Assembly: GCF_023074835.1 (NCBI RefSeq)
Contig: NZ_JALLGW010000003.1
Location: 1 to 64,000, forward strand
Direction: 5' to 3'
Length of the DNA stretch: 64,000 nt
DNA from: Halomarina salina
GTDB taxonomy: Archaea > Halobacteriota > Halobacteria > Halobacteriales > Haloarculaceae
The position numbers and the translations under genes were made by a program. Positions within the stretch are counted from its first letter, which is position 1, and every line of letters begins with the position of its first letter. Below, piece after piece: positions 20,692 to 51,195 of this stretch. A model generated the notes under the pieces. It did no database searches, had not been told where the DNA came from, and saw only the letters and a program-made list of their open reading frames with translations.

Positions 20692-21756
20692 CTAGAGCGG
20701 CTCCTCGCCGTCGATGATACGACGCGCTCGCTCGCCCAGCGCGGGGACGTACTCCTCCATCAGCGGGTAGTTCGGGTTGTCCGCGTTGCCCTCCAGGTGG
20801 CGGCGGTACATCATCTCGCAGGTGCTGGCGGTCTTGAAGACACCGAACGTTCGGTAGAACCGCTCGTTCGAGAACGCTCGTCCGGTCTGCTCCTCGTACC
20901 GGTCGAGGAGTTCGCGCCGAGTGAGGTAGCCGGGGGACGCCTCGACCCGGCTGTTCAGCGGATCGTCGAACTCGGGGTCCTCGGGGTCGAACCAGTGGGC
21001 GAGCGTCCAGCCGAGGTCCGTCAGCGGGTCGCCGCGCGTCGACATCTCCCAGTCGAACACACCGACGAGGTCCGGGGGCGTCCCCGGCCCGAACATGACG
21101 TTGTCGAGGGAGTAGTCGCCGTGGAGCAGCGTGTGGTCGTACTCCGTCGGGACGTTCGCGGCCAGCCAGTCGGCGACGGTGTGCAGTTCCGGCACGGAGC
21201 GGTCGTCGTCGGTCACCTCGACCGCCCACTCGAGTTGGTCCGTCCACCGCTCGACCTGTCGCTCGGTGTACCCCTCGGGGTGACCGAGGTCGTCCAGTCC
21301 GACGGTCTCCGGGTCTAGCGTGTGAATCTCGACGAGCGTATCGACGAACCGCTCCGAGAGCGCACGTCGCTGGTCGGGCGCGGCGAACCGGTCGGGTTCC
21401 ACGTCGCGGATGACGTCGCCCGCCAGGCGCTCCATCAGGTAGAACTCCGCCCCGAGCACGGCGCGGTCTTCGCAGGCGGCGACCGTCGACGGCACCGGTA
21501 CGGCTGTGTCTTCGAGCGCGGACATGACGCGATACTCCCGCAGCACGTCGTGTGCTGCGTCGGCAGTCTCCCCCGCGGGCGGTCGCCTGAGGACGAGTTC
21601 GCGGTCCCCCCAGCCGACGAACAGCGTCTCGTTCGAGTGACCAGCCTGGTGGTACTCGACGGTCAGCGGTCCGCCTGGCCCGACCGCCCTCTCGAGGAAT
21701 CGCGCCAGTCGCTCCTCGTCGTAGAGTCGGTCGAGGTACTCCCGACGGTCGGTCAT
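20692..21756 (-). CDS. APH-type phosphotransferase (ACAD10/11 N-domain-like kinase)
   Basis: Protein-kinase-like phosphotransferase of 354 residues. It has the catalytic loop HGDYSLDNVMF (His212, Asp214, Asn219) and the metal-binding FDWEMSTRGDP (Asp235). Homologues are fused to an acyl-CoA dehydrogenase in ACAD10/11, or stand alone beside ACAD genes, and phosphorylate 4-hydroxyacyl-CoAs, as LvaA does in Pseudomonas. The ATG overlaps the stop of a 19-codon upstream ORF in ATGA. It is very similar to the kinase at 50128 (both share GHSNETLFV and AHDVLREY). Followed on the genome by enoyl-CoA hydratase and two ACAD genes, all on the same strand. Antibiotic phosphorylation is unlikely in this context. 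Confidence 0.88.
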   Translation of the reverse strand: MTDRREYLDRLYDEERLARFLERAVGPGGPLTVEYHQAGHSNETLFVGWGDRELVLRRPPAGETADAAHDVLREYRVMSALEDTAVPVPSTVAACEDRAVLGAEFYLMERLAGDVIRDVEPDRFAAPDQRRALSERFVDTLVEIHTLDPETVGLDDLGHPEGYTERQVERWTDQLEWAVEVTDDDRSVPELHTVADWLAANVPTEYDHTLLHGDYSLDNVMFGPGTPPDLVGVFDWEMSTRGDPLTDLGWTLAHWFDPEDPEFDDPLNSRVEASPGYLTRRELLDRYEEQTGRAFSNERFYRTFGVFKTASTCEMMYRRHLEGNADNPNYPLMEEYVPALGERARRIIDGEEPL

Positions 21757-21812
21757 CGCTGCACCGACGGTTCGTCGAGAGCGTGGTCGTCCGCGCGGTG
21801 AGCGTGTGACAT
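21753..21812 (-). CDS. 19-codon leaderless upstream ORF coupled to the kinase gene
   Basis: The ORF MSHAHRADDHALDEPSVQR begins at an ATG 27 bp downstream of the TATA-like TTAAC element near 21838, where a leaderless transcript should start. Its TGA overlaps the kinase ATG in ATGA. Translation of the kinase therefore probably depends on ribosomes that first read this peptide. No homologue is known to me. Whether the peptide has a role or is only a coupling device is open. Confidence 0.5.
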   Translation of the reverse strand: MSHAHRADDHALDEPSVQR

Positions 21813-21832
21813 GGTACCGCTTCGTACAGCAG

Positions 21833-21843
21833 CCCGTTAACCG
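21833..21843 (-). promoter_or_regulatory. Promoter of the micro-ORF/kinase transcript
   Basis: Minus-strand CGGTTAACGGG is centred 26-27 bp before the ATG at 21812 but more than 80 bp before the kinase ATG, so it fits the micro-ORF as first cistron. Confidence 0.55.
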
Positions 21844-21884
21844 TTCGGTCGGTGACCACTAACGAGGGGTCGTCGCCGTGGGCG

Positions 21885-22679
21885 TTACCGTCCCCTGAAC
21901 TCGGGGTCGTAGTCGTCTTCGGCGAACGCTCTGGCTCCCTCCTGGTGGTCCTCCGTCTCGAGGAGGGGTTCGAAGCGACGGCGGTCGTACGACCGCCCCT
22001 CGTTGAGACCGACCTGGGTCGCGACGTTCGCGGCGTCCTTGATGGCCTGCACCGCCAGCGGCGGCTTGGCGGCCAGCGTCTCCGCGAACTCCCGGGTCGC
22101 CTCGTCGAGGTCGGCGTCGTCGTAGACGCGGTTGACGATGTCCAGTTCGTCCGCCCGGTCGGCCGAGAGGTGGTCGCCGGTCATCGCCACCTCCTTCGCG
22201 ACCGACGGGTTGGCCAGTCGGCTGATGAACTGGACGCCGCCGGCCCCCGGAATCAGCCCCAGGTCGACCTCCGGGAGCCCGAGCCGAGCGTCGCTGTGTG
22301 CGAACCTGAAGTCACAGGCCATCGCCGTCTCGAGGCCGCCACCGAGGCAGTACCCCCGAATCTTCGCGATGATCGGCACCGGGAACTCCTGGATGAACTC
22401 GTAGTGGTGCTGTCCGGACGTCTCGCCCGGCGACGCCTCGCTGAACTCGGAGATGTCCGCGCCGGCACAGAAGTTCCCCTCCGCACCCTCGACGACGACG
22501 GCACGCAGCGCGATACCGTCCGCGTCCTCGTTGTGCGACTCCAGCCACTGCAACCCCGCGACGAGGTCTTGCCGTAACTGGTCGCTGAGCGCGTTCAGCG
22601 CGTCTGGCCGGTTCAACGTCAGTCGCCCGACGTGCGTTTCCTCGTCGAACTCCGCCTCGACTGTCTCGAACTCCTCCAT
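21885..22679 (-). CDS. Enoyl-CoA hydratase (crotonase family)
   Basis: Adds water to trans-2-enoyl-CoA. The 264-residue protein keeps both catalytic glutamates of classical crotonase, in LGGGLETAMACD and LGLPEVDLGLIPGAGG, and the oxyanion-hole block NFCAGADISEF. The other two crotonase-family members in this window lack these glutamates, so this is the most likely true hydratase. Promoter GCATAGTTCT is centred 27 bp before the ATG. It sits between the kinase gene and the paired ACAD genes. Confidence 0.92.
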   Translation of the reverse strand: MEEFETVEAEFDEETHVGRLTLNRPDALNALSDQLRQDLVAGLQWLESHNEDADGIALRAVVVEGAEGNFCAGADISEFSEASPGETSGQHHYEFIQEFPVPIIAKIRGYCLGGGLETAMACDFRFAHSDARLGLPEVDLGLIPGAGGVQFISRLANPSVAKEVAMTGDHLSADRADELDIVNRVYDDADLDEATREFAETLAAKPPLAVQAIKDAANVATQVGLNEGRSYDRRRFEPLLETEDHQEGARAFAEDDYDPEFRGR

Positions 22680-48897: not shown

Positions 48898-49970
48898 CGG
48901 CCGACCTCGACACCGTCGCGGAGGACCTCTCGACGTACCTCTCTGGCCGACTGGCCGACGGCCCCGTCGACGTGACGGACGTCCTGAGCCACACGGAGGG
49001 CTGGTCGCGCCGGACCATCTCGTTCACGGGCCACTGGGCCGACGACGGCGCGGAGACGTCCCAGCGCTTCGTCGTCCGCATCAGCACCGACTACGACGAC
49101 GTCGACGACGCGACGGACACCCGGAACGACATCGAGACGGAGTTCAGAACGATGAAGGCCGGCTACGAGGCGGGCGTCCCGGCACCGGAACCCTACCTCT
49201 ACGAGTCGGACCCCGCCGTCCTCGGCGGGCCCTTCTTCGTCGTCGAACACCTCGACGGCGACGCGCTCATCACCTGGGACCCGCGCAACCGACAGCGGCT
49301 CTACGACGCGTGGGACGACCCGGAGAACACGCTTCCGAGCCAGTTCGTCGACGCCGTCGCCGCCATCCACACCGTCTCCCCCCAGGACGTCCCGTTCCTG
49401 GAGCAGACGGACCCCGAGGCCGTCGTCGACCGGGAACTCGACACGTACGAGCGCATCTACGAGGAGACGAGGCTGAAACGGGAGCCGGCGATTCAGGAGG
49501 CGCTGCGGTGGTTCCGGGCCAACAAACCCGAGGTCACCGAGACGACGCTCGTCCACGGGGACTTCCGCATCGGGAACGTCCTCGTCACCGACGATGAACT
49601 CACGGGCGTCCTCGACTGGGAACTCGCACAGGTCGGCGACCCGCTGTACGACCTCGGCTACGCGAGCACGCGGTACTTCGCCGGAAAGCTCCTCGACCCC
49701 ATCGAACGGCCGGAACTGGCGAGCGCCCTGGTCGAGCGCGAGTGGTTGTACGACGAGTACGAGCGACGGACGGGCCGGACGGTCGACCGGGACCGGGTCC
49801 GGTACTGGCAGGCGTTCTCGACGTTCACGATGCTGACCAGAGGTGTGGCCGGCGCGCACCGGTACCACACCGGGGAGAGCGACGACGTCAGGAGCGCCTG
49901 GTTCCAGTACATCGTCCCCGGCCAGATAGAGGACCTGCTGACGACCATCACCGACGACCGGACGCGCTGA
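48894..49970 (+). CDS. APH-type phosphotransferase (LvaA-like kinase candidate)
   Basis: A 358-residue kinase-fold phosphotransferase with catalytic loop VHGDFRIGNVLV and metal motif LDWELAQVGDPLYDLGY. It differs from the other two kinases of the window, which form a closer pair, in the nucleotide-binding N-lobe (GWSRRTISFTG). The start overlaps the stop of the upstream 159-residue gene. Relatives phosphorylate 4-hydroxyacyl-CoA so that an ACAD-like enzyme can eliminate phosphate. The ACAD, SDR and synthetase genes needed lie within 4.5 kb. Confidence 0.87.
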   Translation: MTADLDTVAEDLSTYLSGRLADGPVDVTDVLSHTEGWSRRTISFTGHWADDGAETSQRFVVRISTDYDDVDDATDTRNDIETEFRTMKAGYEAGVPAPEPYLYESDPAVLGGPFFVVEHLDGDALITWDPRNRQRLYDAWDDPENTLPSQFVDAVAAIHTVSPQDVPFLEQTDPEAVVDRELDTYERIYEETRLKREPAIQEALRWFRANKPEVTETTLVHGDFRIGNVLVTDDELTGVLDWELAQVGDPLYDLGYASTRYFAGKLLDPIERPELASALVEREWLYDEYERRTGRTVDRDRVRYWQAFSTFTMLTRGVAGAHRYHTGESDDVRSAWFQYIVPGQIEDLLTTITDDRTR

Positions 49971-50101: not shown

Positions 50102-50131
50102 ATGGAACGACTGGAGGGTGAGGACTCGTGA
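50102..50131 (+). CDS. 9-codon leaderless upstream ORF coupled to kinase gene
   Basis: ATG-initiated MERLEGEDS starts where a leaderless transcript is predicted and ends in a TGA that overlaps the kinase GTG start (GTGA). The arrangement repeats that found before the paralogous kinase at 21756, although the peptides do not resemble each other. Confidence 0.45.
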   Translation: MERLEGEDS

Positions 50132-51195
50132 GTGAGAGCGACGACTCGTACTTCGAGCGCCTCGTCGACGTAGACGCGCTCGAATCGTACCTCGAAAGCC
50201 ACCTCGGAGCGACGGACACGTTCGAGGTCGACCGGCACGCCGGGGGGCACTCCAACGAGACGCTGTTCGTCACGTGGGGGGACCGCGACCTGGTCGTCCG
50301 ACGGCCACCGCCGGGCGAGACTGCCGACACGGCCCACGACGTCCTCCGGGAGTACACGGTAATGGAGGCACTCCAGGGAACCGACGTCCCGGTTCCGGAG
50401 ACGGTCCTCGCCTGCGACGACCACGACGTCATCGGGAGCGACTTCTACGTGATGGTGCGCGAACGCGGCGTCGTGATTCGCGACGAGGAACCGGACCAGT
50501 TCGCGGCCCCCGACCACCGTCGCCGACTCGGTGAGCAGATGGTCGACACGCTAGCGTCCATCCACCGGGTCGACTACGAGGCGGTCGGTCTGGAGGAGTT
50601 CGGCCGACCGGACGGGTTCACCCAGCGCCAGGTCGACCGCTGGCAACGCCAGTACGAGTGGGCGTTCGAGGTCACGACGGACGAACGCGACGTGCCGGCG
50701 GTCCACGAACTGACCGACTGGCTTCAGGCGAACGTCCCCGAGGACCCGCCACACGCGCTCGTTCACGGCGACTACAAGCTGGACAACGTCATGTTCGAGA
50801 CGTCGCCGCCGCCGACGGTCCGCTCGGTGTTCGACTGGGAGATGTCGACGCTCGGCGACCCGTTCGCCGACCTCGGGTGGCTGCTCTCGTACTGGCCCGA
50901 CGACGGCGACCAGTCGGCCGCCGTCGGTACCGCCGGCGGGGCGGAGTTCCTGCTCCGGGACGGCTACCCGACCCGCGACGAACTGGTCGACCGGTACGAG
51001 TCCGCCACCGGTCTCGAGTTCGCGAACGACCGCTTCTACCGAGCACTGGCGGTGTACAAGCTCGGGGCGCTCGGGGAGATGTTCTTCCGCCGGCACCTCG
51101 AGGGCAACGCGGACGACGACACGTACCCGCAGATGGAAGAGCGCGTGCCGACGCTCGCAGCGCGCGCGAAGCGCATCGTCGAGGGCGAGGAGTGA
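50128..51195 (+). CDS. APH-type phosphotransferase (ACAD10/11 N-domain-like kinase)
   Basis: A 355-residue kinase, close paralogue of the one at 20692: both share GHSNETLFV, RRPP.GETAD.AHDVLREY and DNVMF. Catalytic loop VHGDYKLDNVMF and metal motif FDWEMSTLGDPFADLGW. It starts with GTG at 50128 in a 4-base overlap with a 9-codon ORF. An HSDL2-like SDR follows on the same strand after about 100 bp. A 4-hydroxyacyl-CoA or related acyl-CoA is the probable substrate class. Confidence 0.87.
   Translation: MSESDDSYFERLVDVDALESYLESHLGATDTFEVDRHAGGHSNETLFVTWGDRDLVVRRPPPGETADTAHDVLREYTVMEALQGTDVPVPETVLACDDHDVIGSDFYVMVRERGVVIRDEEPDQFAAPDHRRRLGEQMVDTLASIHRVDYEAVGLEEFGRPDGFTQRQVDRWQRQYEWAFEVTTDERDVPAVHELTDWLQANVPEDPPHALVHGDYKLDNVMFETSPPPTVRSVFDWEMSTLGDPFADLGWLLSYWPDDGDQSAAVGTAGGAEFLLRDGYPTRDELVDRYESATGLEFANDRFYRALAVYKLGALGEMFFRRHLEGNADDDTYPQMEERVPTLAARAKRIVEGEE

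Follow-up and report, generated by a model that had tools for sequence, protein, structure and literature searches.

Coupled leaderless small ORFs have been described in mycobacteria on the basis of mapped transcription start sites (TSSs), ribosome footprints and an enrichment above chance (Shell et al. 2015, PMC4633059). They start with RTG at the 5' end of the transcript, have 5–50 codons and end with a TGA placed inside the RTGA of the next gene; in an example given in that report, the layout was kept and the peptide diverged. For haloarchaea, the relevant reports concern H. volcanii, in which 72% of coding transcripts were described as leaderless and 28% as carrying 5'-UTRs (PMC4983044). 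The uORFs presented in the same work encode 15–31 aa with a low pI, precede normal genes and come from leaders of 150–250 nt only, and the section devoted to them does not mention stop–start overlaps (Babski et al. 2016, PMC4983044). In this species, Shine-Dalgarno (SD) motifs were reported as non-functional in 5'-UTRs (PMC3986360), and nine of nine tested overlapping or very close gene pairs, including pairs with the four-nucleotide ATGA stop–start overlap, were strictly coupled, the upstream partners being ordinary genes (Huber et al. 2019, PMC6728339). Fifteen nucleotides of the upstream gene were enough according to PMC10666635, a result obtained with E. coli fusions and not with a free-standing archaeal micro-ORF. 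In a limited literature search, no report was found that describes exactly this coupled class for haloarchaea.

The locus compared here with these systems lies in the window, i.e., the whole 64,000-nt stretch of Halomarina salina DNA that was analysed, and its features are listed in Table 1. The micro-ORF preceding the kinase gene consists of an ATG, 18 further codons and a TGA, read from 21812 to 21753 on the minus strand. The TGA occupies positions 21755..21753, and the ATGA at 21756..21753 is common to the micro-ORF stop and the kinase ATG (4-nt overlap). The initial annotation had described both the 19-codon ORF opened by the ATG at 21812 and the shared ATGA; its coordinates and distances agreed with the sequence and the overlap was confirmed. 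The length falls inside the 5–50 aa range of the mycobacterial class and the TGA lies inside the RTGA of the following gene, as in that class, whereas the RTG is here placed at a predicted 5' end. The ATGA also corresponds to the overlap of the H. volcanii pairs, but in those the upstream partner is an ordinary gene and not a micro-ORF. The micro-ORF resembles the H. volcanii uORFs in size, low pI and position upstream of a normal gene; it differs from them in opening at the predicted 5' end of a leader of only 56 nt, counted from 21812 to the kinase ATG. The kinase start was unambiguous because no other in-frame ATG or GTG was present between the preceding stop and codon 40 of the gene, and the candidate of an alternative start further upstream was rejected, as none exists.

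Table 1. Coordinates of the features around the kinase start (positions in the window).
Feature	Position	Strand	Basis and remarks
APH-fold kinase gene	20692..21756	-	PF01636, Pfam E = 9.5e-51
Micro-ORF	21753..21812	-	19 codons, predicted leaderless; MSHAHRADDHALDEPSVQR, then stop; TGA overlaps the kinase ATG
Weak SD-like GGTG before the kinase ATG	21762..21765	-	Sequence; putative match to the haloarchaeal anti-SD; the H. halobia ortholog has GGCG
-10 AA element of haloarchaeal promoters	21821..21822	-	Sequence; -10 is A-enriched upstream of the genes of this genome
Predicted archaeal promoter core	21837..21847	-	BRE-like CGAA 21847..21844 and TATA-like TTAA 21840..21837
Enoyl-CoA hydratase gene	21885..22679	-	PF00378, E = 1e-51; 128 nt upstream of the kinase ATG

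Sequence similarity relates the kinase to ACAD11 (PDB 8v3v, E = 2.2e-45; 8v3u, E = 2.8e-44), specifically to its kinase domain, which is reported to phosphorylate 4-hydroxyacyl-CoAs (PMC12440821). Judged by this homology, it is a probable 4-hydroxyacyl-CoA kinase of the ACAD10/11-LvaA type. The kinase gene shares its strand with the hydratase gene and two acyl-CoA dehydrogenase genes, and the surroundings encode acyl-CoA dehydrogenases, a short-chain dehydrogenase and subunits of a biotin-dependent carboxylase. Because of the ACAD11 kinship and the surrounding acyl-CoA dehydrogenase and carboxylase-subunit genes, a role in the breakdown of 4-hydroxy acids is likely. A paralogous kinase gene (57% identical) is located at 50128-51195 (+) of the window; it starts with GTGA, in which a 9-codon ATG ORF (MERLEGEDS) ends; the promoter score of this ORF is weak (3.6), below the p < 0.005 threshold of the larger sample used below. 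Directly before this paralog, a more distant APH-type kinase is encoded at 49107-49919 (+), 32% identical over residues 63-338.

Promoter placement was evaluated with two matrices trained without the kinase gene. For the first one, covering 464 kb with genes called in the organism's own genome, 278 of 413 genes, those with at least 60 nt to the previous gene, were aligned on their starts and displayed a clear leaderless signal: A-rich positions -34/-33, a T/A-rich stretch from -30 to -26 and A at -10. The larger matrix was based on 2.464 Mb and 2314 genes, 1711 of which had a gap of at least 60 nt. The centre of the TTAA element is located about 27 nt upstream of the micro-ORF ATG, and this ATG was recognised as promoter-bearing with p = 0.0017 (464 kb matrix) and p = 0.0009 (2.46 Mb matrix), the strength corresponding to about the 72nd percentile of gene starts in the 464 kb matrix. 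At the kinase ATG no promoter was detected (p = 0.45 and p = 0.32, respectively). The earlier proposal that the TATA-like element faces the start of the micro-ORF rather than that of the kinase was thus borne out.

The best matrix position in the 129-nt stretch was 21811, one nucleotide inside the micro-ORF ATG (p = 0.0001 in the 2.46 Mb matrix, against 0.0009 at 21812). If transcription started there or at 21810, the AUG would not be intact and the micro-ORF would never be leaderless. We consider this quite improbable, as 21812 is an A after a C, which is the usual initiator preference, and a best position at +1 is common. Of 860 genes that have a good promoter no more than 6 nt from the start, 355 showed the matrix peak at position 0, 152 at -1 and 132 at +1. 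Because of the frequency of such +1 peaks, the offset is ordinary and 21812 is a plausible TSS as predicted from the matrix, 21811 being possible too.

The micro-ORF and the overlap alone were unremarkable because a coupled upstream ORF of 8–60 codons with any promoter preceded 227 of 1711 genes (ATG-started in 111 of 1711), and 583 of 1711 gene starts were RTGA; these starts were called with a codon-based gene finder of our own rather than taken from curated annotation, and all enrichment tests share one genome. The part above chance was the coincidence with a promoter. When only genes lacking a promoter at their own start were considered, 19 of 65 promoter-bearing (p < 0.005) upstream ATG ORFs ended at RTGA in the 2.46 Mb, compared with 54 of 615 low-score ATGs (Fisher p = 1.0e-5); stratified by distance, the same contrast gave an odds ratio of 3.25 (p = 1.1e-4). 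Where the promoter position was as strong but the codon was not a start codon, the frame ended at RTGA in 125 of 1619 cases (7.7%; Fisher p = 6.5e-7 versus 19/65), and 20 column-permuted matrices yielded a pooled rate of 8.1%. Expressed as odds ratios, promoter-bearing ATG ORFs ended at RTGA 3 to 5 times above control codons. About 5 of the 19 coupled ATG cases are expected by chance at the 7.7% control rate, with about 14 in excess. No RTGA-end enrichment was observed for GTG ORFs in the 2.46 Mb (3/36). With exact overlaps excluded, 23 promoter-bearing ATG ORFs stopped between -10 and +16 nt of the gene start, against 12.2 expected from distance-matched controls. A smaller first sample of 1.264 Mb analysed at p < 0.01 gave 9/34 versus 28/313 (Fisher p = 0.005), and the direction was the same at all thresholds tried on the 2.46 Mb (p < 0.01, 0.005 and 0.002). 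The layout of promoter plus coupled ORF is over-represented in this genome, as in the class of Shell et al. 2015.

These counts bear on a reading in which the mRNA starts near 21812 as well, but translation of the kinase begins de novo at its own AUG behind the 56-nt leader, the micro-ORF being a chance frame. An AUG at the 5' end of a transcript is the standard start signal in haloarchaea, and one stands at the predicted 5' end here. Together with the rate at which promoter-bearing ATGs reach RTGA, well above control, this renders de novo initiation unlikely, even though it fits the 28% of H. volcanii coding transcripts with 5'-UTRs, the 227 of 1711 genes preceded by coupled ORFs and the lack of conservation of the micro-ORF peptide described below.

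The same locus (L068) was found in Halomarina halobia PSR21, a member of the same genus (G051, record NZ_CP119993.1). The hydratase gene is intact there, and the neighbouring kinase gene (3001-3348 of L068) is cut short by a frameshift after about 47 codons, with only about the first 97 residues matching. The promoter region matches that of H. salina at 82% identity across 45 nt, TATAA replacing TTAA at the same spacing, and a GTG, also RTG, occupies the position of the micro-ORF ATG with promoter p = 0.0008 (464 kb matrix). The overlap is lost in this broken kinase gene, with ATGG in place of ATGA and the TGA gone. Over the 57 codon-bearing nucleotides of the micro-ORF, the two species are 75% identical, with 4/5/5 differences at codon positions 1/2/3, in comparison with 20/12/79 in the hydratase gene and 3/4/15 at the kinase start. 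The micro-ORF peptide is thus without visible codon-level constraint between these two species, and peptide conservation was rejected on the even spread of the differences. Conservation of the peptide or of the overlap had been suggested as a check of the first description: the peptide did not pass it, and the overlap was lost in the sole close ortholog, whose kinase gene is broken.

A functional or regulatory peptide, i.e., a leader peptide or attenuator, is accordingly the least probable of the readings considered, with only a very slight chance. The peptide's pI of 5.7 resembles haloarchaeal values, and 88% of control spacer ORFs have a lower codon score, but 89% of gene starts have a higher one, the codon positions are unconstrained between the two species and nothing in Rfam matched in 21600..22000. 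Neither a conserved peptide nor a regulatory codon run, by which an attenuator would be recognised, was found in the micro-ORF. A regulatory hairpin was also considered as a candidate. The leader with the kinase start folded at -35.7 kcal/mol (z = -1.41, 18 of 200 shuffles equally good) and the H. halobia counterpart folded differently (z = +0.86), so no hairpin is claimed.

Two further relatives with intact kinase genes were inspected. In L036, from a Salinirussus MAG, the kinase is 74% identical and shares its ATGA with the end of a 52-codon ORF (2786-2943) that has a strong leaderless promoter of its own (p = 0.0004, 464 kb matrix). In L007 (G144; kinase 76% identical), it is the hydratase gene that ends in the ATGA of the kinase. 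In all three intact kinases of the subfamily that were inspected, the start codon falls within an ATGA that also ends an upstream frame, and the upstream partner varies. This pattern is suggestive only, because many members of the wider family start with RTGA. The homolog survey, performed with the own-genome matrix, comprised 64 loci, of which one had no start and 63 were counted, L008 and L036 being one locus. RTGA was the start in 52/63 and an own promoter was present at the start in 25/63. A coupled upstream RTG at p < 0.01 was detected in 8/63 rows, which include the micro-ORF itself, the L008/L036 duplicate and two ORFs of at most 20 nt, and the nearest-RTG rule picked the wrong start for L007. 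Since RTGA is simply common in this kinase family, the survey adds little.

The direct hydratase–kinase overlap in L007, and the two acyl-CoA dehydrogenase genes, hydratase gene and kinase gene on one strand in H. salina, would agree with a reading in which readthrough of the hydratase operon provides most of the kinase expression, with a minor internal promoter and a micro-ORF that is not leaderless on that mRNA. This is improbable, as the 128-nt gap holds a promoter of gene-start strength that is retained in H. halobia.

In the 2.46 Mb, 22 genes combined a promoter with a coupled upstream ORF (19 ATG, 3 GTG). Eleven of them were mapped to H. halobia loci, and four of these were dropped because of low identity or an unaligned start (#3, #12, #18 and #20). 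Among the seven comparable orthologs, promoter and coupling were retained in three (#2, #5 and #9) and not retained in #1, #7 and #10; #6 was weak, its coupled GTG scoring 3.2 and ATG 0.8. In two of the three retained cases the ORF length had changed, from 23 to 24 and from 14 to 12 codons, with the overlap kept via an ATGA/GTGA switch. For the control set, 28 genes were drawn from 88, 12 were mapped and 7 were comparable, a short-chain dehydrogenase with matches only to many paralogs being left out; some coupled RTG without a promoter was retained in 4 of these 7. With numbers this small (3/7 promoter-coupled, 4/7 controls), no conservation is claimed for the class.

Elsewhere in the own genome, C1:890609-894211 (-) and C1:704043-705146 (-) are strong candidates for genes with conserved coupled leaderless micro-ORFs, of 23 and 6 codons, respectively, both retained with the promoter in H. 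halobia. Another gene, C3:162442-163656 (-), starting MSQNKILDGVTVLDLSTFVT, follows a 23-codon coupled micro-ORF whose promoter score of 9.6 was among the strongest; no clear ortholog of this gene was found in H. halobia.

By analogy, the micro-ORF is best read as a haloarchaeal member of the class described in mycobacteria. The two differ in that the mycobacterial cases are bacterial with mapped TSSs, while here the organism is archaeal and the TSS a prediction, the enrichment concerns ATG but not GTG ORFs, and the overlap is not retained in the single close ortholog. We assign a probability of roughly 0.62 to the explanation that the leaderless micro-ORF loads ribosomes and hands them to the kinase by termination–reinitiation. 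The kinase mRNA would start at or within one nucleotide of 21812, placing the micro-ORF AUG at its 5' end; a ribosome would start on this AUG by the leaderless route, the main one in haloarchaea, reach the UGA at 21755..21753 and re-initiate on the overlapping kinase AUG. An mRNA beginning with this AUG should be read as micro-ORF and then kinase, given the leaderless majority, the non-working SD motifs, the strict coupling and the 15-nt sufficiency cited above, and we infer a start at the micro-ORF, its translation and re-initiation as the most likely sequence of events. The micro-ORF would act as a cis element, a ribosome loader, the peptide sequence being of little importance.

Several observations speak against this explanation: the coupled stop is lost in H. 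halobia, the matrix prefers 21811, the peptide is unconstrained, about 5 of the 19 cases are expected by chance, GTG ORFs are unenriched and promoterless coupling was retained as often in controls. The initial annotation had predicted that the kinase is translated only by re-initiation after the peptide. The re-initiation part gains from the promoter at the micro-ORF ATG, the RTGA excess and the coupling known from H. volcanii, while the word 'only' went unsupported.

A broader reading, tentative and held at slightly under even odds, is that haloarchaea, in which SD motifs do not drive initiation in 5'-UTRs, possess a class of genes whose promoter lies tens of nucleotides too far upstream for leaderless translation, the gap being bridged by disposable leaderless micro-ORFs ending at RTGA. 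As part of that reading, the micro-ORF would be a loader selected for its frame and end point and not for its peptide. The kind is known from mycobacteria; a haloarchaeal class behind this micro-ORF would possibly be new. The question of how leader-bearing haloarchaeal genes are translated when SD pairing fails (PMC3986360) becomes testable here: if micro-ORFs load ribosomes, a point mutation at 21812 should shut off the kinase. Should the class prove real, haloarchaeal gene finders and promoter annotation would have systematically overlooked coupled micro-ORFs.
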